A DNA stretch of 64,000 nucleotides, from NCBI GenBank assembly GCA_900320245.1, contig ONRP01000005.1, positions 40,688 to 104,687 on the forward strand, in the 5' to 3' direction. The notes beneath the pieces were generated by a model. That model was not told the origin of the DNA and made no database searches. It saw only the letters and a list, made by a program, of their open reading frames with translations. The DNA is from an uncultured Prevotellaceae bacterium (lineage in GTDB: Bacteria; Bacteroidota; Bacteroidia; Bacteroidales; Muribaculaceae). This document shows, one piece after another, positions 29,061-36,630 of the stretch. Position numbers and translations under genes: made by a program. Every line of letters starts with the position of its first letter. Position 1 is the stretch's first letter.

Positions 29061-29132
29061 GCTCCTGTAGTTCAATGGATAGAATGGAGGTTTCCTAAAC
29101 CTTAGATTTGGGTTCGATTCCCAGCGGGAGTA
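29061..29132 (+). tRNA. tRNA-Arg (anticodon CCU)
   Basis: A cloverleaf can be drawn: acceptor GCTCCTG pairing with CGGGAGT (with G-U pairs), anticodon stem GAGGT/ACCTT with loop TTCCTAA (anticodon CCT), T arm TTGGG-TTCGATT-CCCAG, discriminator A at 29132. CCA is not encoded. It reads AGG. Its 3' end is the integration site of the element to the right. Confidence 0.93.
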
Positions 29133-29135
29133 CAA
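29122..29135 (+). repeat. attL core repeat
   Basis: CAGCGGGAGTACAA, overlapping the last 11 nt of tRNA-Arg; identical to 36549-36562. Confidence 0.85.
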
Positions 29136-29166
29136 AATACTGTTGATTATCAGCATTTTACATCAC

Positions 29167-29194
29167 TCGGGGTGTAAAAAGGGGAATTAAATAA
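29167..29194 (+). repeat. Left terminal repeat of the element
   Basis: TCGGGGTGTAAAAAGGGGA at the left end recurs with one extra A at 36387-36406, and in part (TTGGGGTGTAAAA) at 36240-36252, all in the same orientation. Candidate arm-type binding sites for the integrase or excisionase. Confidence 0.55.
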
Positions 29195-29195
29195 C

Positions 29196-29224
29196 AAAAA
29201 AGGGGACTTTTGCCCCCTTTTTTT
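29196..29224. terminator. Bidirectional terminator at the left end of the element
   Basis: AAAAAAGGGG (29196-29205) / CCCCCTTTTTTT (29213-29224). Ends the minus-strand operon of the element and shields it from tRNA transcription. Confidence 0.75.
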
Positions 29225-29246
29225 GCATTCTATACCCGTCTGCAGG

Positions 29247-29519
29247 TTATGCCCCCGTTTCAGCATCTCCCCCGCAGGGGTTCATATACTGACCTGCCAT
29301 TATTCTGATGTGCTCCCGGCAGTCCTGGTAGGCATTGCCCCGGTAGCGACTGCAGAACGACTTGAACTGCCACAGTAAACCATTAGACAAAATGAAATAG
29401 TAAGCCACATTCTTGCAGTCCTTTTCGATTTCAAACGCTGCTTGCAATTCATTGACTTGTTTCTGCAACTTATGTACTTTGGCTGCATTCTCGTTGGGTG
29501 TTGTTTGTTCCTTGCTCAT
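29247..29519 (-). CDS. Small hypothetical protein with N-terminal coiled coil
   Basis: 90 aa, last gene of the element. Residues about 14-38 (VHKLQKQVNELQAAFEIEKD) form a coiled coil, followed by a hydrophobic stretch CKNVAYYFILSNGLLWQFKSF and a short Cys-containing tail. I do not recognise a family. It lies 141 bp downstream of the large terminase on the same strand, so it may be a late accessory of packaging, but that is inference from position only. Confidence 0.55.
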   Translation of the reverse strand: MSKEQTTPNENAAKVHKLQKQVNELQAAFEIEKDCKNVAYYFILSNGLLWQFKSFCSRYRGNAYQDCREHIRIMAGQYMNPCGGDAETGA

Positions 29520-29660
29520 ATCTATAATATTTAATCAGTTAGACGTTATCAGCCGCAAAGATAAAACTAAATGTCTTGTTTTTCCAAATAATATCGCATT
29601 TAATTATCTGATTACCAACAAATTACAAACAAGTATGTAAAACTGCAAACAATTATTCCC

Positions 29661-30854
29661 TCAATACAAACGTATAACGCTGGTGCGTACCCTACCTGGT
29701 TGCTGCCGTTCATGCCCTTTCATGTATGTTATAGCATAGCGGCAACTGTCGATGCCGTGATTATATCGGTCTATGGGCTGGTTGGTGGGGTTCCCGTCGC
29801 GGTCTACCTGCCATTTATACTGTTTCAGTTCATTGATGATGCCCGTTGACCGCCTGGTAACATTGATTGTGTACCGTTTCATCAAATCAATGCCAAATGT
29901 TATACTGTCCCGCCCTTTGGTGCACGGGAGCACCCATAACCCCGCGTTTTTTAATTCTTGTATGCTCTTCGGTTCTGCCTGGTCCGCGATGATCAGGTCG
30001 CGACGCGTGATGCCCCGCCGTCTGCACTCTTCCACTATGTCGGTGTTGGTGTAACCCCGGCTATAGATGTGCTCATCTATCCACAACTGCCCGTGTGCCA
30101 GCCGCACCTCTTCCAGCGCGCAGTAGTCCTGGGAGAACCCAAAGTCTAAACCCAATGCCCGCATTTTTGTAGCCGCGTCGGTGGGGTACTGTGCCGCGTC
30201 GATGATGTTAAATGTCGGGAAAACAAGCCCGGTTAACTTGCCCGTCATGCCGCGGGCATAGACTTTCCACAACTCGGGGTCGCTGATGCCCTCTATTTCG
30301 CGGTGCATATCTTCCGGCAAGAATTGGTTGCCGCGGTGGTCGCTAATAACCAGCGCACAGTCGCTGCCACCGATGATGTTGTCATGCACCCAAAACCGCG
30401 CACTCGGGTTGTAGTCTATGAAGATCTGGTCACGGGTTCTTATCTGCAACTGCCAAAAGACTGAGAACTGCATGCCGTTTGCTTCATTCACGAAAAGATA
30501 ATCACGCTTGCCGCTCTTCGCGTCTTGTTCATCAGCGTATGATTTGAACTCAATAATTGAACCGTTTTTGCCCGTGAATGTGTTGTCGCTCTTGTTATGC
30601 TCAAACCAGCCCGATAGATAACGGTTGCCACCGATGATGTGCAGCGTGTCGCGGATAGCACCTACTTTTAGATTCGGCAGGTCTTGCCCGGCAACAGTGA
30701 TGATGATGCCGTCTTGTTCCATGCTCAGCGCAATTAGCCGCTGCATGATGCAGTAGGTCTTACCGCTCCCGGTGCCGCCCTGGTTCACGATATAGCGCAC
30801 GTCGCGGTTACAGTTAGCCATGAACAACTCTTTGTTGACCTTGAACAACTCCAT
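29661..30854 (-). CDS. Terminase large subunit (PBSX-like)
   Basis: A 397-aa packaging motor that appears complete. ATPase domain: Walker A GGTGSGKT (26-33), Walker B YLFVNEAN (119-126, catalytic Glu124). RNase-H-like nuclease domain: GLDFGFSQD (Asp237), LIIADQAEPKSIQEL (Asp291) and the terminal IDRYNHGIDSCRYAI (Asp369), the three acidic sites expected for metal binding. Length is near the PBSX-type norm of about 400-430. It starts in the stop of the upstream gene (TAATG, 1-nt overlap). No portal gene follows, which is abnormal for a prophage. Confidence 0.9.
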   Translation of the reverse strand: MELFKVNKELFMANCNRDVRYIVNQGGTGSGKTYCIMQRLIALSMEQDGIIITVAGQDLPNLKVGAIRDTLHIIGGNRYLSGWFEHNKSDNTFTGKNGSIIEFKSYADEQDAKSGKRDYLFVNEANGMQFSVFWQLQIRTRDQIFIDYNPSARFWVHDNIIGGSDCALVISDHRGNQFLPEDMHREIEGISDPELWKVYARGMTGKLTGLVFPTFNIIDAAQYPTDAATKMRALGLDFGFSQDYCALEEVRLAHGQLWIDEHIYSRGYTNTDIVEECRRRGITRRDLIIADQAEPKSIQELKNAGLWVLPCTKGRDSITFGIDLMKRYTINVTRRSTGIINELKQYKWQVDRDGNPTNQPIDRYNHGIDSCRYAITYMKGHERQQPGRVRTSVIRLY

Positions 30855-31297
30855 TAAAAACCCTCCCGTTTTCTGATTTCATCTTCACTTGTTGCAGGGG
30901 CAAAACCCGTGCTGATCATCTTTATTTCAAGTGCTGGTTGTGTGCCCTGCCTGGGTAACTTGCTGAACTCAGCCCGCAGGTACTCGATGCGCTGGGCTAA
31001 CTCAGCCGTCATGCCCTCGGGGTCTATCTGCAGCAACTGCTCCATGCGCTGGTATTCGTATTCGATAGACTGTTCGACGCTTACCGCTTGACGCTTTGGG
31101 AGCACATAACCCGCGACGCTGCCCATCACTTTTGCCCGCTCGCTGGGCTCCATTGCGTCTAAATCATCTGCAAACTGTCCGCTATAGTAACCCTCGACAA
31201 TGTTTGCCAGCACCTCTGCAGCCCGCAGTGTGACTTTGTCTTTTGCACCTTTGGGTCTTCCGTTGGGGTTCCCCGATGTACCTTTCTTAAATCCCAT
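30854..31297 (-). CDS. Putative small terminase / DUF5681-like DNA-binding protein
   Basis: 147 aa. It begins MGFKKGTSGNPNGRPKGAKDK, the basic GNPNGRPKG motif typical of DUF5681 and of several phage terminase-associated proteins, then a helical body (VTLRAAEVLANIVEGYYSGQ; VEQSIEYEYQRMEQLLQID). The stop overlaps the start of the large terminase by 1 nt. Role inferred from position: the small subunit would recognise the pac or cos site of the element. The alternative is a generic DNA-binding cofactor. Confidence 0.6.
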   Translation of the reverse strand: MGFKKGTSGNPNGRPKGAKDKVTLRAAEVLANIVEGYYSGQFADDLDAMEPSERAKVMGSVAGYVLPKRQAVSVEQSIEYEYQRMEQLLQIDPEGMTAELAQRIEYLRAEFSKLPRQGTQPALEIKMISTGFAPATSEDEIRKREGF

Positions 31298-31329
31298 GTT
31301 GAAAATCTCCTATTGTTATTGTGTTGTTC

Positions 31330-32208
31330 TTACAATGATTTGCGCCCGATAATCACACCGTGCCCCTGGGCTACATGAAACAGTGTGCCGATGCCGATGC
31401 GCCCGCAGGTCTTCAGCAGGTTGTCGAACTTGCGGTCACATTCTGCAGTCTTATAACCAGCATTCAATGCTGATAGACGGTGGTAGAACTCCCGCCCCGG
31501 TTCCCCCAATGATGCCAGCGCAGCACCGATGTTGAACCAATTATCGTAGCCGTCGGTTATGTCGATGTGCTGCAGTTCGCAGGTCTTGACCAAATCTTCA
31601 ACCCGTCGCATTGTATCATCAGCACCCCGGTAGGGGACAAATGCCCGTCGCGGCTCTCGGTAGGTCGCACTGTATGGCTCTGCCGCCTGGTTCTCGTACG
31701 GTTCGGGATCATAACTGAGCACCCGCAGCCGGGTCACATCTTTGCATGCTTTGTCTATCGTGATGCCTATTTTGGAAAAGTCACGCTGCAGTGCTCTGAC
31801 GTGGTCCCCGTGATGCGCTGGGCATGTGATAGGGACAATACAGTACAAGCCACCCCCGCTGACCGACAGTGCCATGTAGGCTATGTTTCTACACCTCGAT
31901 AACCTGGTCTTCATCTCCATGATGCCCTGCCCGGGGTTGTCTTTGCCGTCGATGTCAACACACACCAGCCCGCTATGTTCAATCAGATTTGATGCAGACC
32001 GCGACGGGCAGAACCTGCCGCTAAGCGTCGCGGCTGGTAGGCTGGACTTGATGCGCTGCCGTTCCCCGGGGTCGGTGGTTTGTCGCAGCCGCATGACCTC
32101 GTCAATGTGTTTGGTACTATTCAAGAATTGCCGAATTGTGGCAACTGTGCCGACGTTATCATGCAGACCGTTGTACACCGATATTCTGATGTTAAAAATA
32201 TCTTCCAT
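31330..32208 (-). CDS. VirE_N/BT4734-like primase protein
   Basis: 292 aa. The BT4734-like (VirE N-terminal) domain, of the archaeo-eukaryotic primase fold, has the acidic pair VCVDIDGKD (Asp85, Asp87), SVSGGGLYCIVPI and the RLRVLSYDP strand. The C-terminal about 85 residues (YDNWFNIGAALASLGEPGRE, FDNLLKTCGRIGIGTLFHVA) resemble a PriCT_2 primase C-terminal domain. Probably makes primers for replication of the element together with the neighbouring DUF3987 protein. It starts 82 bp after that gene. Confidence 0.75.
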   Translation of the reverse strand: MEDIFNIRISVYNGLHDNVGTVATIRQFLNSTKHIDEVMRLRQTTDPGERQRIKSSLPAATLSGRFCPSRSASNLIEHSGLVCVDIDGKDNPGQGIMEMKTRLSRCRNIAYMALSVSGGGLYCIVPITCPAHHGDHVRALQRDFSKIGITIDKACKDVTRLRVLSYDPEPYENQAAEPYSATYREPRRAFVPYRGADDTMRRVEDLVKTCELQHIDITDGYDNWFNIGAALASLGEPGREFYHRLSALNAGYKTAECDRKFDNLLKTCGRIGIGTLFHVAQGHGVIIGRKSL

Positions 32209-32290
32209 TTTTCGTTTTTATTGTGGTCATAGGTCATAGGCTATAAGTGTCACAAATGCCCATAAAATGGGAGAATTGCAGTAAAATGAC

Positions 32291-33640
32291 CTATGACTTA
32301 TTACCTGCATTTTTGTATTTATAAAGTGCTCTACTAATCACTGATTGATTGATGTGCAAAACATCTGCAAGTGCATTTTGGCTCTGAACGTCATATCGGC
32401 TGAATATTTCCCCGATTAACTCTTCATTGCCAATGGCGCGGGTCGGCTGGTCGCATGTTATGTCTTCGTGGACAGCCCGTGCACACTCGATAAAGTAGTC
32501 GCATAGACGCTCACAGTAACTCATGGTTTCGCCCGATATGTCCCCGCCACCGTACATGACCTGGACCGTTGCCGCCAGCCGTAGAATATGGATTTTGAAC
32601 TTAGACAACATGCCGCGTCGGTAATCATCATCAGATGCGTTGATTTTGTCGATGATCAGGTCGCAGTAGTGGTCATAGACCTGCCATGCAGCATCAGATA
32701 ACGTGCATTTCTCCGGCACTGCAGAATAGGATTGCACCCAATTGTTAACCATGCGGTGCCATGCGTCATGCACCCGTGGGCTCATCTCCCTGGGTTTTCG
32801 TTTGCTGATTTTGTCTAACTCGGGGTAGACATACAAAAATCGGTGGTTCCAGCCGTTGCCCATTAGCAACTGTTTGCCGAATGTTGACGGGAGCACCGAC
32901 GGCTGAATGCCGCCAATTATATTCATATAGGGGTCAGTGATGCACAGTGGTATGTCTTTCTTTCGGTTCACGGGGTAGCCCGCATTACTCCATATCGACA
33001 GTAATTGCTCCACCTCGCCACTCTTATTGTACCTGCAAAAATTGTTCATCATGCCCTGCAGTTCATCACAGTAAGATAGCAACCGCACCGGGTTGTGCAT
33101 TAGTGCCTGGTTCCTTGCCTCGGGGGTTATGTCACTGATGATGATTTGTTCCCAATGTACCGCGTCGCGGTTGTCCCCGTCTTCCAACTGTGTCAACTCT
33201 TCCCGGTACCTCAGATAATTGCCGCGGTCCAATTCGGTAAACGGGAGCAACACCTGCTTGACGGGCTCAGACTTGTTAAACCCGCTGGGAGCAACAAGCG
33301 CATACCAGCCGCTCGGGTGATTAGTATAGATGCCCGTCTTTACCTGGCAGTTCTTGCCCGCAGCCGTCGCTGTTGCCACCAGCACCGCAGCCGCCACAAA
33401 ATCGACGGGAGCCACCAATGCCGCGGCATATTCTCTGATGATTTGTTGCACATGGGCTGGTAGCCCGTCTATCGGCATTTTTCGCGGCTGATGTAGCGAG
33501 AACATGCCGTCATCATTCTGCCGCACCTCTTGCTCGTTTACGGGGTTTTGTGTATCTTTGCACTGTGCGCTGCCGCCCGCACAGTCATCACTCATAGAAC
33601 CCGCCACAGTGCGGGTTTTCTTCTCTTGTGTCATGGTCAT
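32291..33640 (-). CDS. DUF3987 helicase-like replication protein
   Basis: 449 aa. The DUF3987 core has a P-loop-like APSGFNKSEP (117-126; Asn replaces the usual Gly before Lys-Ser) and a Walker-B-like LLSYCDELQGM (Asp192, Glu193). The region VEQLLSIWSNAGYPVNRKKD, IIGGIQPSVLPSTFG follows. The last about 50 residues (EIFSRYDVQSQNALADVLHINQSVISRAL) form a helix-turn-helix. DUF3987 proteins pair with AEP primases in mobile elements and are thought to act as replicative helicases. It overlaps the upstream small gene by 4 nt. Confidence 0.8.
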   Translation of the reverse strand: MTMTQEKKTRTVAGSMSDDCAGGSAQCKDTQNPVNEQEVRQNDDGMFSLHQPRKMPIDGLPAHVQQIIREYAAALVAPVDFVAAAVLVATATAAGKNCQVKTGIYTNHPSGWYALVAPSGFNKSEPVKQVLLPFTELDRGNYLRYREELTQLEDGDNRDAVHWEQIIISDITPEARNQALMHNPVRLLSYCDELQGMMNNFCRYNKSGEVEQLLSIWSNAGYPVNRKKDIPLCITDPYMNIIGGIQPSVLPSTFGKQLLMGNGWNHRFLYVYPELDKISKRKPREMSPRVHDAWHRMVNNWVQSYSAVPEKCTLSDAAWQVYDHYCDLIIDKINASDDDYRRGMLSKFKIHILRLAATVQVMYGGGDISGETMSYCERLCDYFIECARAVHEDITCDQPTRAIGNEELIGEIFSRYDVQSQNALADVLHINQSVISRALYKYKNAGNKS

Positions 33641-33837
33641 CTCTCCTTTTCTTTAGTCCATAGATAGCGCAGAAAACACATGGTGTCGCGGTTCCAGCCG
33701 AAACGGCATAGCACAGTGACGCTGAACCATGCCAGCCGCAGTGTCATGCGCCCTGCTACCAGCCGCATGTGTGCCCGGTGCTCGGGGTAGTGCCAATAGC
33801 GCAGAACCTCTTCCATGTTAGCAGGTGTGTCTTTCAT
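33637..33837 (-). CDS. Small hypothetical protein in the replication operon
   Basis: 66 aa, Arg- and Trp-rich (MEEVLRYWHYPEHRAHMRLV, RLAWFSVTVLCRFGWNRD). It overlaps both neighbours by 4 nt, which supports it being real and translated. Function unknown. Confidence 0.6.
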   Translation of the reverse strand: MKDTPANMEEVLRYWHYPEHRAHMRLVAGRMTLRLAWFSVTVLCRFGWNRDTMCFLRYLWTKEKER

Positions 33838-34121
33838 CTTGCACCACTCCCCGCACGTTTAGTCATCTGCAGTGCCGTGTCTGCAATCTCTTCTGCCGAT
33901 GCGTAGCGGTTCGACAGTAGCCAACTGATCACGTCTTCACGCTTGAAGAAAATAACCTTGCCGCTGGGCTTGCTATACGGGAGCACATGCGCCTGGGCTA
34001 ATTTGTACAACTGTGACTTGCTCAGCCCGGTGTACGTCGCGGTGTCTTCAATGGTCCAAACCTCTTTAGTGTTGATAGCCACCCTATCTGCTATCACTGT
34101 CATTAAATCTTTGTCGCACAT
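33834..34121 (-). CDS. MerR-type helix-turn-helix protein, likely excisionase or repressor
   Basis: 95 aa from the ATG at 34121. The HTH_17/excisionase-type winged helix is EVWTIEDTATYTGLSKSQLY, then KLAQAHVLPYSKPSGKVIFF and KREDVISWL. An in-frame upstream ATG at 34265 would add 48 residues encoded by the iteron array and is rejected. Likely role: excision with the integrase or control of the replication operon whose upstream DNA carries repeats. It is the first gene of a tight four-to-six-gene operon. Confidence 0.75.
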   Translation of the reverse strand: MCDKDLMTVIADRVAINTKEVWTIEDTATYTGLSKSQLYKLAQAHVLPYSKPSGKVIFFKREDVISWLLSNRYASAEEIADTALQMTKRAGSGAR

Positions 34122-34218
34122 TTTAAATATATTATTATTGCCCTCTAAAACCTTTGGGCATTGGTATCTGCTTTTGCAAATGCAGGTGTGCAAAATAAGC
34201 CCGAATCTGACATTAAAA

Positions 34219-34263
34219 GGGGTGATAAAAGGGTGACAAAAAAGGTGACAAAAATTGTCACCC
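34219..34263. repeat. Iteron-like array before the HTH-replication operon
   Basis: Direct copies GGGGTGATAAAA (34219-34230), GGGTGACAAAAA (34231-34242) and GGTGACAAAAAT (34244-34255), then an inverted TTGTCACCC (34255-34263). Twelve-to-thirteen-nt spacing puts the copies on about one face of the helix. Candidate origin of the element or operator for its HTH protein. Confidence 0.6.
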
Positions 34264-34274
34264 ATAACAAATGC

Positions 34275-35000
34275 CTAATTACTGAATATCTTATCTATCA
34301 TTTCATGCCCTGGTGGAGCACCGCCTGTATAAATGGATAGCAGTTTATTAATCACAGTACCGATGCGTTTTTCATTGAATAGTTTATCTACTGCAGTGCC
34401 GGGAAAAATACCTCGCTGGGTAGGTAGATAAACCCGCATTAGAAAATATGCTAATAATCGTTTGGTTACTCCATTCTTTTCATTTCTTCGGTAACCCTTA
34501 CGGTCATTATTAATTGAAATGATGCCGTGGTCTATTGCAATAGGGAAATACTTTTGTGCCCGTTCGCTATTCAATTTGCCGCGGTATTGTTCCATGCCAG
34601 CCGGGAGCCATAGACCATCAGATGCACTGCCGGCACCGTAGGTCTGCCACCGCTCCATGTACACAGTAACATAGTGCTCAGCCCGCGCCCGCTGGTCCGC
34701 GTCGCGTATCTTCTTTTTAATCTCATGCCGCACTGCAATCTCCAATTGTGGGAACAGTAACCCCTCATCAGCGGTGTTGAATAATTCTTTAGTGTCATCT
34801 AATGAATAATCCGTCGCTGATTTTTCGCCCTGGAAATAGTCACCTATCAGCCGCAGTGCCGTGATAGCATCATCAGTCCCGGCTAACTTGTGAACCAGCA
34901 GCGCACATTTGAGATGATCTAAGCACCGGGCACTCTCAGTCTTCACGCGCTGCACCTCTTCTGCAGGTGTCCCAACTTGTTTGTTCTCGTTATCTTCCAT
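34275..35000 (-). CDS. Hypothetical protein next to the integrase
   Basis: 241 aa, all predicted helical, highly charged. The middle has KKKIRDADQRARAEHYVTVYMERW; the C-terminal third (NNDRKGYRRNEKNGVTKRLL, VYLPTQRGIFPGTAVDKLF) could be a winged-helix DNA-binding region. I do not recognise a family. It follows the integrase by 4 bp and precedes the iteron array, positions typical of regulators or excision cofactors. Confidence 0.55.
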   Translation of the reverse strand: MEDNENKQVGTPAEEVQRVKTESARCLDHLKCALLVHKLAGTDDAITALRLIGDYFQGEKSATDYSLDDTKELFNTADEGLLFPQLEIAVRHEIKKKIRDADQRARAEHYVTVYMERWQTYGAGSASDGLWLPAGMEQYRGKLNSERAQKYFPIAIDHGIISINNDRKGYRRNEKNGVTKRLLAYFLMRVYLPTQRGIFPGTAVDKLFNEKRIGTVINKLLSIYTGGAPPGHEMIDKIFSN

Positions 35001-35004
35001 GATA

Positions 35005-36198
35005 TCAGATGTTGTTGATGTCTATTGCTTGAAGACTGTCTAATGCTCTCTTCTTTTCCTGGTCCAATGCCCGTGCATACACCTGGGTATAGGTTATAGT
35101 AGAATGCCCCATCAGTTCTGCCACTACTTTGATGTTAGCACCGTTTGTCAGAATGTTTGTGGCAAAACTGTGCCGCCCGCAGTGCCATGTGATGTGCTTA
35201 TCGATGCCAGCCCGTTTGGTCCAATTCCGCAGTGCTTTTAAACACATGGTTGATGACGGCAGGTGGAAAATATAATCATCTTCTGCACCCTGGGGTTTAA
35301 TACCTATTATATATAATGTGGTATCGTTTAACTGAATTGTGACCCCCTTGCCCGTCTTGGACTGTCTGAACTGCAGCAAACGGTTGCTATAGTCAATGTC
35401 AGAAAACCGCAGGTTGTTGATGTCGCAGAACCGAATACCGCAGAAACATGTCAGCGCAAATGCCCGCCTAATTTCGGGGTTCTCCCTGGGGTAGTGCGTT
35501 GCAAATAATTGTGCAATCTCTTCTTGTGTCAGTACGTCTTTTAGCAGCATGTCCTCGTTGCGCTCGACGCTAACACCGCGGCATGGGCTCTTAGTGAAGA
35601 TGCCGTCTTCTACACCTTGATTGATAATTTTCTTAAACCGCTGGTAAACGCTATGCACACCCGTACCCCGGTGGGTGTCTTTGAGATATTCAGCAAATTG
35701 TTTCATCATGTCGGTTGTCATGCGCTTGGGCTCAATCTTATTGGCATGGCGGGGGTAGTGCTCAGTTATGAATTTTCTAAAATCGCGCATTGCCATCTCC
35801 ACAACTCTGATGTCGGCTTTATTGTAAGCGTTGATGTAGTCTTGGGCATACGCGAAAAAATCTACCTTGTTGTTCGGCTTTACCCGGTACCCCTCTTTGT
35901 CTTCCAGCACCTGCTGCCCGCGCTCGTTCTTTATCTGAATAGCCAATTTAATGACCTCTTCATTTTGTTTTTTCTCAAAAGGGGTGCTGGGCTTGCTGAT
36001 CAGATACAAACGCAGAAACTCTTTTTTTCTATCTACTTTGGTAACTACTTTGCCCGTGCCGTCGATGTCCTGGGTGTAGCCATAGACGTAGTACAAATAG
36101 ATGCTCTCGGTACCGTTCTTTAACGGCTTGGTCATCAACTTGGGGTTGTCGGTTCGGTTGTTCTTGAACCACTCTTTGTTTAATCTTGCTCTACTCAT
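35005..36198 (-). CDS. Tyrosine recombinase (integrase)
   Basis: A 397-aa integrase from the ATG at 36198 (MSRARLNKEWFK). It has an N-terminal arm-binding region, a SAM-like core-binding domain (FFAYAQDYINAYNKADIRVV) and a catalytic domain with all residues: Arg256 (CGIRFCDINNL), Lys281 (SKTGK), His339-x-x-Arg342 (HCGRHSF), His365 (MGHSTI) and Tyr374 (YTQVYAR). It resembles Bacteroidota phage_int_SAM_5 integrases of mobile elements. A -7 box TATATTTG (36231-36224) precedes it, so the upstream in-frame ATG at 36267 is rejected. Confidence 0.93.
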   Translation of the reverse strand: MSRARLNKEWFKNNRTDNPKLMTKPLKNGTESIYLYYVYGYTQDIDGTGKVVTKVDRKKEFLRLYLISKPSTPFEKKQNEEVIKLAIQIKNERGQQVLEDKEGYRVKPNNKVDFFAYAQDYINAYNKADIRVVEMAMRDFRKFITEHYPRHANKIEPKRMTTDMMKQFAEYLKDTHRGTGVHSVYQRFKKIINQGVEDGIFTKSPCRGVSVERNEDMLLKDVLTQEEIAQLFATHYPRENPEIRRAFALTCFCGIRFCDINNLRFSDIDYSNRLLQFRQSKTGKGVTIQLNDTTLYIIGIKPQGAEDDYIFHLPSSTMCLKALRNWTKRAGIDKHITWHCGRHSFATNILTNGANIKVVAELMGHSTITYTQVYARALDQEKKRALDSLQAIDINNI

Positions 36199-36548
36199 AA
36201 TGTCAGTTATTATTATTTGTTGGCAAATATAGTCATTTATTGGGGTGTAAAATAGAGAACACAACATTTTTTATTGAAAAAATGCTATATAGGACAAAAA
36301 AAGCGACATTTTGAACACTTTGCACTGTCATGTGCCGCACAGTAGACCATAGAAATCATATAAACTTATTTATTTACAATTAGTTATCGGGGTGTAAAAA
36401 AGGGGATAAAATTTGATGACAACATGCTATTGCTTGATAATATATGGAAAATAGCCGATGACAATAGATATTGTAAAATCTTGTTTTTTAGTCATTTTAT
36501 GGCTTTTCATGTCTTTTGTTGTCACATTGAAAAGGTGGGTTTTGTACT
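36199..36548. other. 350-bp right-end control region of the element
   Basis: No convincing gene. It holds the integrase -7 box (36224-36231), two copies of the GGGGTGTAAAA terminal repeat (36240-36252 and 36387-36406), and AT-rich sequence up to attR. Confidence 0.6.
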
Positions 36549-36562
36549 CAGCGGGAGTACAA
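36549..36562 (+). repeat. attR core repeat
   Basis: CAGCGGGAGTACAA, identical to 29122-29135. Upstream bases (GTACT) differ from the tRNA. Confidence 0.85.
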
Positions 36563-36596: not shown

Positions 36597-36615
36597 ATAT
36601 TATAATGTGTGGCTC

Positions 36616-36630
36616 TACTCCCGCTGGGAA
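36616..36630 (-). repeat. Inverted tRNA-Arg 3'-end relic
   Basis: On the minus strand TTCCCAGCGGGAGTA, identical to tRNA-Arg 29118-29132. No cloverleaf can be completed around it. Confidence 0.5.

Follow-up and report, generated by a model that had tools for sequence, protein, structure and literature searches.

A tRNA-Arg-borne element in Bacteroidales with the gene plan of a phage satellite and a large terminase gene of its own

Introduction

The closest described systems are the PICIs, which the passages of PMC6092414 used here characterize by a specific att site that is never occupied by prophages, a lack of structural and lytic genes, the gene order int, regulator, pri/rep and optionally terS, a size around 15 kb, phage-dependent induction and packaging, and the possession of PICI-unique and phage interference genes. 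Many PICI att sites lie in tRNA genes, according to the portion of PMC10111431 consulted. A second type of satellite, PICMI, is described in the main text of PMC10803314 as being packaged as a concatemer.

We analyzed a 64,000-nucleotide stretch of DNA from an uncultured Prevotellaceae bacterium (the window), in which an original prediction made from the letters alone had placed an undescribed-looking phage satellite. Bacteroidota are a dominant gut phylum, and the word "undescribed" holds as far as the literature searched goes, where we came across no satellite family from this phylum. To our knowledge, known satellites either borrow the TerL of their helper (PICI, P4, PICMI) or carry a terminase together with capsid genes (capsid-forming PICI, MulchRoom/MiniFlayer). 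A satellite that has a terminase and no other virion part would be an intermediate for testing how satellites gain packaging independence.

Results and Discussion

A discrete element at the 3' end of a tRNA-Arg gene

The element comprises 7,427 bp, which is also the length of the predicted excised circle, and is bounded by exact copies of the 14-bp repeat CAGCGGGAGTACAA (Table 1). The direct repeat around a block of about 7.4 kb was predicted correctly: its two copies are the only exact ones in the whole 3,022,080-base assembly, and a reversed-pattern control gave none. A third similar site, with two mismatches, lies outside the element on the minus strand (36613-36626); 0.38 matches with up to two mismatches are expected by chance in the window. 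ARAGORN confirmed the tRNA-Arg as the target. Because its tRNA call ends at 29133, the left repeat consists of the tRNA 3' end and two further bases, and the tRNA lies whole on the left. Arm-like repeats occur near both ends, and the only exact copies of CGGGGTGTAAAAA in the 64 kb start at 29168 and 36388.

An empty tRNA-Arg site, which the prediction had proposed to look for, was found in the sister genome G016 (L062), where the left flank is followed by a single 14-mer and then by a near-match to the window's right flank. The genes just beyond the att sites are flanking genes that are present at the empty site too. Among 29 other loci listed for the genus, eight have about 70-230 bp between the tRNA and the downstream flanking gene, six of these eight with the exact 14-mer, and 7 of 19 longer loci at the tRNA-Arg site hold another integrase.

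Table 1. Features of the element and its integration site (positions in the window; strand "." where the feature has no orientation)
Feature	Position	Strand	Evidence
tRNA-Arg (anticodon CCT), integration target, intact	29061..29133	+	ARAGORN
attL core CAGCGGGAGTACAA	29122..29135	.	Repeat search; empty site in L062
Arm-like repeat CGGGGTGTAAAAA near attL	29168..29180	+	Exact copy
Terminator-like hairpin 3' of last gene	29196..29223	-	Weak: 8 such sites found, 8.7 expected
90-aa ORF	29247..29519	-	34% relative in another tRNA-Arg insert (L104)
Large terminase subunit TerL, 397 aa, full length	29661..30854	-	Terminase_3C 1.7e-16
DUF5681 protein, putative small terminase subunit, 147 aa	30854..31297	-	Pfam 6.2e-8
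Primase, BT4734-like N-terminal and PriCT-2, 292 aa	31330..32208	-	BT4734-like_N 2.1e-15, PriCT_2 3.6e-13
DUF3987 protein, 449 aa, best PHROG DNA helicase	32291..33640	-	Pfam 1.1e-40
66-aa ORF without family	33637..33837	-	ORF list, Pfam, PHROGs
HTH_17 protein (excisionase/regulator type), 143 aa	33834..34265	-	Pfam 7.5e-10
241-aa ORF between integrase and HTH	34275..35000	-	31% relative, same position in L361
Tyrosine integrase with arm-binding domain, 420 aa	35005..36267	-	Pfam 1.4e-23
Arm-like repeat, 2 mismatches to CGGGGTGTAAAAA	36241..36253	+	Repeat search
Arm-like repeat CGGGGTGTAAAAA near attR	36388..36400	+	Exact copy
attR core CAGCGGGAGTACAA	36549..36562	.	Repeat search; empty site in L062

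Gene content and proposed life cycle

The one-direction block is real, with all nine ORFs on the minus strand in the order integrase, 241-aa ORF, HTH_17, 66-aa ORF, DUF3987, BT4734/PriCT-2 primase, DUF5681, TerL and 90-aa ORF. Pfam agreed with the predicted integrase, HTH, DUF3987, primase and terL; the gene that had been called terS encodes a DUF5681 protein, a family to which Pfam assigns no function. Three of the nine ORFs have no significant family, and a structure model of the 241-aa protein was uninformative (pLDDT 41). Searches of the nine proteins against Pfam and PHROGs (E up to 1) found no relaxase, capsid, portal, tail or lysis family, nor did either database point to a capsid-size or interference gene in the element.

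The att repeats, the empty site, the one-direction block, the full-length TerL and the lack of any recognised structural gene together support a satellite, and judging from the sequence we consider it probable that the element is an integrated PICI-like phage satellite with its own terminase. In the proposed life cycle, a helper phage would trigger satellite expression. The 7.4-kb circle would be excised by Int, assisted by the HTH_17 protein in the role of excisionase, and replicated by the DUF3987 and BT4734/PriCT-2 proteins. The DUF5681 protein would act as TerS and select satellite DNA, while the satellite TerL, from a phage lineage, would dock on the helper portal and fill helper heads; heads, tails and lysis would all come from the helper. 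A prophage in the host genome, G000:C44, which has matches to tape measure, portal, TerL and integrase, could be a candidate helper; it is one of at least one such prophage there. What stands of the predicted Bacteroidota satellite is a discrete tRNA-integrated element of satellite plan, with an empty site and no structural genes. The predicted circular junction did not appear in viral contigs, where none of three attP patterns had a match.

Related elements in other genomes

The same plan, with att repeats, recurs in two other Prevotellaceae elements, from the metagenome-assembled genomes of contigs CAMHNO010000002 and ONIY01000004. L058 (6.66 kb, tRNA-Met, 16-bp att) has the order int-258aa-HTH-AAA helicase-DUF6371-DUF5681-TerL, and L059 (7.63 kb, tRNA-Leu, 13-bp att) has int-128aa-219aa-HTH-DUF3987-DUF6371-78aa-DUF5681-TerL; their integrases are different from that of the window element, and their replication genes partly so. 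Both elements keep the 7-kb layout, so a continuation into capsid and tail genes, which the prediction had named as contrary evidence, is not universal among relatives. Of 101 genomes of the genus, three yielded a satellite-type full-length TerL, and the same three were recovered among 397 genomes of the family. A gene-order search (393 genomes, 18 places) gave no extra satellite in the other 17 places examined.

Seven more tRNA elements of 5.8-6.7 kb with att repeats, one of them (L360) in the window's own genome, have integrase, HTH and TerS-like genes in common, and no TerL match was found in these seven. PADLOC, run on the 88 proteins of 12 elements, reported six families, most of them HTH (mad1) or primase models. 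Two other sets of candidates were set aside. The DUF3987-plus-primase loci L041-L057 were dropped as satellite relatives. The genes of ten were inspected one by one (L041-L043, L045, L051-L053, L055-L057), and many of these ten are an HTH-DUF3987-primase trio near tRNAs that has no integrase or terminase nearby, while L055 has both an integrase and a DUF5681-like gene. In L174 (IMG/VR), considered as a TerL satellite, the 865 bases read hold a DUF5681-like gene and, from there up to the end of the contig, small genes, with no TerL.

Other loci bear on whether the element is an integrative element that moves otherwise, by conjugative mobilization in trans or by natural uptake, with the terminase as acquired cargo. 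The int-HTH-DUF3987-BT4734 core is also present near a tRNA-Cys in L354 of Parabacteroides distasonis, which has no annotated terminase, and three inserts at the same tRNA-Arg (L092, L095, L102) have integrase, HTH and DUF3987 and no terminase matches. However, the window element has no relaxase match in Pfam or PHROGs, and relaxases in close relatives, which the prediction had named as contrary evidence, were likewise absent among the families listed for the 88 proteins of the 12 elements (25 of 38 Pfam, 25 of 28 NCBIfam). We also know of no use of terminase genes outside DNA packaging, and we regard this explanation as unlikely.

Ancestry and conservation of the terminase genes

Relatives of TerL and the primase were taken from 26 genome-contig loci, the best 80 of 104 matches and the best 80 of 340; 13 loci were examined gene by gene and the others by tblastn with the element proteins. 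The best TerL match is a human faecal phage record (60.5%), a fragment with more phage-like genes after terL. In a tree of 122 rows, the window TerL nests among phage rows (L148, L009, L254-L260), and L058 and L059 are placed elsewhere; its starred branches force two changes of satellite label, the tree being from a quick method with some long branches that meet. Together with the loci read, it indicates that the window terL descends from phages whose loci run on into further phage genes. As the TerLs of L058 and L059 belong to another phage lineage, satellites probably took up a terminase at least twice, to judge by these sequences.

The 60.5% match was what first suggested a decayed prophage, meaning a larger temperate phage that lost its structural genes and retained integrase, replication and terminase. 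The phage ancestry of the window TerL fits that history, and terminase remnants do exist: in L131-L133 a chromosomal TerL gene has no more than one large neighbour, itself without an assigned family, and there is no match to the three satellite integrases. The same-plan elements L058 and L059 weakened the idea, because decay would have to account for a compact gene order shared by three elements that have att repeats at three different tRNAs, with TerL frames free of stops in each and with TerLs of two lineages. Moreover, the nine phage loci closest to the window TerL gave no DUF5681-like ORF (profile, E 0.01; four also by Pfam), so the pairing of DUF5681 with TerL was not simply left over from these phages. 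We judge decay to be improbable and retain the satellite reading.

We assign the DUF5681 protein as a putative TerS from its position only; the stop codon of its gene shares a single base with the start of terL (TAATG). Its structure model (pLDDT 68.5, pTM 0.31) matched no solved terminase, with one Foldseek match at E 9.8, and a DUF5681 profile matched no terminase among PDB sequences. DUF5681-like genes also occur at places where no terminase was seen.

The window TerL keeps Walker A (26-33), E124, D237, D291 and D369. The L058 and L059 TerLs are 79% identical, and their divergence (dN 0.18, dS saturated) fits constraint. These features matter for the proposal that the TerS-TerL pair serves to compete with or poison the helper terminase, protecting host and element, and is not the packaging motor of the element. 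Some satellites disturb helper packaging, as reported in the part of PMC10690885 consulted, and a TerL of phage origin could compete for portals. Yet it is not obvious why a poison should require a functional nuclease, and this TerL is full length with the conserved positions of both domains kept, and those of L058 and L059 are apparently under constraint; we think interference a rather remote explanation compared with a satellite that packages its own DNA.

Taken more broadly, and as a tentative reading that we would not yet call probable, Bacteroidota may harbor a class of 6-8 kb tRNA-borne satellites with freely swapped modules around a constant DUF5681-type TerS. Some, the window element among them, would have captured a complete TerL from local phages, at least twice independently, and would be terminase-autonomous, using helper heads only. 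The swapped modules would be integrases and replication genes (DUF3987 with BT4734, DUF3987 with DUF6371, AAA helicase with DUF6371, or a rolling-circle Phage_CRI Rep). Because such satellites would depend on the helper for nothing but empty heads, they could use helpers whose packaging signals are quite different. If real, they would be a channel of gene flow and of phage parasitism that has gone unseen, and tRNA sites together with the DUF5681 gene would be easy markers for finding them.

Comparison with known systems

The window element resembles PICIs (SaPI, EcCI, PmCI) in its terminal integrase, HTH/AlpA-type regulator, replication genes and, putatively, the optional terS, as these are set out in the passages of PMC6092414 used here, and in having no phage structural or lytic genes. 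Its int, HTH_17, DUF3987, primase and DUF5681 genes match the PICI order, with a putative TerS, and terL is added. It differs in size (7.43 kb, with relatives of 5.8-7.6 kb, against about 15 kb), in its DUF3987/BT4734 replication genes, in having terL next to a TerS-like gene, and in its phylum. Neither PICI-unique nor interference genes were recognised among its ORFs, three of which have no significant family.

PICMI is similar in its 6.1 kb, its core of integrase, HTH_17/AlpA and DUF3987, and its lack of capsid remodelling genes, but it lies at fis instead of tRNA-Arg, and the main text of its description (PMC10803314) does not contain the word terminase, whereas the window element has TerS-like, TerL and separate primase genes. 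Capsid-forming PICIs and the Streptomyces satellites MulchRoom/MiniFlayer encode both terminase subunits, according to the part of PMC10690885 consulted; in the window element TerL is certain and TerS is assigned from position only. Beyond the terminase, those satellites code for portal, capsid and further head genes, with protease and connectors in the capsid-forming PICIs; none of these was recognised here. Likewise, the head, tail and lysis genes of a prophage were not recognised in the window element, nor was a relaxase family, as expected of a mobilizable element (IME). Unlike the window element, the Bacteroidales integrative elements of the int-HTH-DUF3987-BT4734 type, such as L354 of P. 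distasonis, have no annotated terminase, but they share its replication core and gene order; the BT4734 protein is 50% identical.

Results and Discussion

Ends, genes, and movement of the element

The window element is 7,427 bp long and is seated in the 3′ end of tRNA-Arg(CCT). As originally predicted, a direct repeat bounds it; this 14-mer is exact and occurs only twice in the whole 3.02-Mb assembly, both times at the element's ends, while its reversed control has 0 copies. All nine ORFs lie on the − strand, and their family matches agree with the proposed one-direction block of integrase, HTH, DUF3987, primase, and TerL genes. The proposed terminase pair held in part: TerL is full length, and the "terS" gene encodes a DUF5681 protein whose TerS identity is suggested by its position before terL, with a one-base overlap between its stop and the terL start. 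No element protein matched portal, capsid, tail, lysis, or relaxase families. Features are collected in the table.

Close to each end is a short repeat, CGGGGTGTAAAAA, of which the window holds no further exact copy. Near either end, the same-plan element L058 has two comparable repeats spaced by 11 bp. Its counterpart L059 has a single one on the left side and two, again 11 bp apart, on the right. We read these repeats as putative integrase arm sites.

We queried 101 same-genus genomes with the DNA ending at the left att, and 100 matched. The 30 loci listed among these matches comprise the window's own and 29 others, which were compared. The gene flanking the right att, presumably rubrerythrin, lies ~70-230 bp past the tRNA in eight of the 29, and six of these short-gap loci hold the exact 14-mer. 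An exact empty tRNA-Arg site, which the prediction had anticipated, was found in genome G016 (L062), where left flank, 14-mer, and right flank equal the window without its element. To judge from the sequence, the window element has moved.

Longer flanks were taken for 19 of the 21 remaining tRNA-Arg(CCT) loci (L091-L109). In 16 of them the flanking gene lies at a distance of 1.7-7.3 kb, and in three it was not found. Different integrases occur in seven of the 19 (L092, L093, L095, L096, L102, L104, and L109), so small elements of several kinds use this tRNA; host genes may account for the shorter gaps. HTH and DUF3987 genes, with no terminase match, are present in L092, L095, and L102, and the DUF5681 score of a 169-aa TerS-like gene in L109 falls below the cut-off. 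The att repeats measure 18 bp in L092 and 19 bp in L109; a search of L095 found none.

Features of the window element and of related tRNA elements
Feature or element	tRNA	Coordinates	att repeats	Length	Genes or remarks
Integration target	tRNA-Arg(CCT)	29061-29133
Window element ends		starts 29122 and 36549	exact 14 bp
Window element genes					right to left: tyrosine integrase, 241-aa unknown, HTH_17, 66-aa ORF, DUF3987, BT4734-like_N + PriCT_2 primase, DUF5681 protein, TerL, 90-aa ORF
L058	tRNA-Met		16 bp	6.66 kb	integrase, 258-aa gene, HTH_17, AAA helicase, DUF6371 protein, DUF5681, TerL
L059	tRNA-Leu		13 bp	7.63 kb	integrase, 128-aa and 219-aa genes, HTH, DUF3987, zinc-ribbon/DUF6371 protein, 78-aa ORF, DUF5681, TerL
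L356, L357, L359, L361	tRNA-Leu				integrases 44-47%, HTH 40-49% identical to window's
L360	tRNA-Lys	G000:C38:60158-66381 (L360 7159-13382)	14 bp
L362	tRNA-Leu
L365	tRNA-Arg(CCT)

Terminase genes and their origin

A TerL search of 101 relatives yielded two further strong same-genus matches, in genomes G029 and G049, and the elements L058 and L059 surround these TerL genes. Across the window element, L058, and L059, integrases are 21-29% identical and replication genes differ; TerL (40-79%) and DUF5681 (40-58%) both persist. The 241-, 258-, and 219-aa genes occupy the same place, and as the first is only 16-23% identical to the other two in forced alignments, common descent is not shown; a gene of L361 is 31% identical to the 241-aa protein.

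The window TerL keeps a GGTGSGKT loop, E124, and acidic residues 237, 291, and 369, which we take to be the catalytic positions; all are invariant across five aligned TerLs, apart from slight variation at loop letters 1 and 6. Its C-terminal half matches 2wbn, a solved large-terminase domain, at 1.4e-7. In a quick-method tree of 122 rows, in which some long branches meet, it nests in a starred phage clade with L148 (Prevotella corporis), L009 (human faecal phage), and IMG/VR contigs L254-L260. The L058 and L059 TerLs group as a 99% pair next to phages of Bacteroides, Parabacteroides, and Phocaeicola; given the starred branches of this tree, the satellite label must have changed two or more times. 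Between L058 and L059, TerL has a dN of 0.18 and saturated dS, which fits constraint.

Using a profile of the three satellite DUF5681 proteins, we found no DUF5681-like ORF at E 0.01 in nine phage loci of the window TerL clade, several of them short contigs. Directly 5′ of terL in four clade phages, the gene has no family (L009, L254), an Sf6-type TerS match below cut-off (L256), or a KGG motif (L148). The satellites thus appear to combine their own type of TerS-like protein with a locally acquired TerL. In other TerL loci (L151, L152, L155-L160, L162, L272, L309, L311, and L329), a DUF5681-type gene directly precedes terL, and we therefore infer that the DUF5681 protein is a TerS. Counting against this, its predicted structure was poor and matched no terminase structure. 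In addition, no terminase was seen with the DUF5681-like genes of L364 and L366-L368, and some of the elements with TerS alone may therefore not be packaging satellites. In those four loci, the gene adjoins a 165-178-aa protein that looks like a microvirus pilot protein; PHROGs did not confirm this, returning unknowns and one weak structural match.

Several other terminase loci were observed. At tRNA-Ser, L159 (1348-11146) has a ~10-kb compact prophage-like block with integrase, portal, virion protein, DUF5681-type gene, and TerL. L156 (7467-11173) has tRNA-Ser followed only by integrase, a 78-aa ORF, a DUF5681-type gene, and TerL; it may be a still smaller element with a terminase, or else an L159-type block after a deletion. 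In L131, L132, and L060 (family f20 genomes), TerL has one neighbour of 862-870 aa, beyond which no phage gene is obvious; their tree neighbours are Dysgonomonas. In L147 (7019-9139), the TerL halves lie apart within a single 706-aa open frame, perhaps due to an intein.

A wider group and the rarity of TerL

At a cut-off of 1e-5, the three-protein DUF5681 profile matched 24 of 397 family genomes at 25 places, and 14 neighbourhoods were read. Seven (L356, L357, L359-L362, and L365) are tRNA elements of 5.8-6.7 kb with integrase, HTH, TerS-like gene, and 13-32 bp att repeats, and none has a TerL match. One of them, L360, carries integrase, HTH, and DUF5681 genes and shares a genome with the window element, making it the second satellite-like element there. 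The end of L357 is unsure, as a longer and more distant repeat is also present. L358 resembles the seven and is cut by a contig end; L355 has an integrase, and no att repeat was found. L363, L364, L366, L367, and L368 look different. Pfam DUF5681 at 0.001 recovered four of 88 scanned proteins, most TerS-like genes being seen by the satellite profile only. Replication genes of the wider group include a rolling-circle Phage_CRI protein (4/88), AAA_25, DUF6371, and RusA.

The TerL-bearing form is rare among the sampled genomes, given high-scoring TerL in three of 397 family genomes and no satellite layout at any of the 17 other places order-wide. At 1e-30, the TerL profile matched nine family genomes, with high scores in G000 (the window's own), G029, and G049 and six weaker; among the latter, G328 was examined and has a 706-aa TerL in a run of other genes. 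The order-wide search at 1e-40 matched 16 of 393 genomes at 18 places.

Proposed mechanism and candidate helper

Based on the protein families, the integrase and HTH protein would excise the element, the DUF3987 protein and primase would replicate it, the DUF5681 protein would select DNA for packaging, and the element's own TerL would pack it into helper heads. The host genome has three further TerL-like places by profile; the one on contig 44 lies in a prophage where integrase, tape measure, and portal genes were matched besides TerL, and this prophage is a candidate helper, no more. The circular junction predicted for viromes did not appear: attP junctions of the window element, L058, and L059 were absent from viral contigs, which counts against the satellite reading. 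So does an element of P. distasonis close to tRNA-Cys, which has the same replication core and no annotated terminase.

Two 5.7-kb IMG/VR contigs, L218 and L220, have 123- and 127-base terminal repeats and are circular. They carry an 831-aa primase-helicase, a 133-aa protein with a weak DUF5681-profile match, and a further gene that is presumably serine-recombinase-like. They are possibly free mini-satellites.

Comparison with known satellites

A 2024 review of satellite families, in its available text, regards terminase genes or cos/pac sites as suggesting mobilisation by phages (PMC11389934). In the available texts, the stem "bacteroid" is absent from PMC10803314, PMC6092414, and PMC10111431, and among open-licence papers just two contain both "phage satellites" and "Bacteroidota", one of them in passing (PMC12324425). 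AH14b is described without a terminase (PMC4936722). PICIs combine int, a regulator, pri/rep, and sometimes terS in ~15 kb (PMC6092414). The PICMI, 6.1 kb in size, has integrase, HTH_17/AlpA, and DUF3987 (PMC10803314), all of which the window element shares; however, it sits at fis rather than tRNA-Arg(CCT), and "terminase" is absent from that paper's main text, whereas the window element has TerS-like and TerL genes. The cf-PICIs and MulchRoom/MiniFlayer, as described, have both terminase genes plus capsid genes (PMC10690885), unlike the window element with no capsid family match. We therefore file the window element outside PICI, PICMI, and cf-PICI, as a variant of phage satellites.
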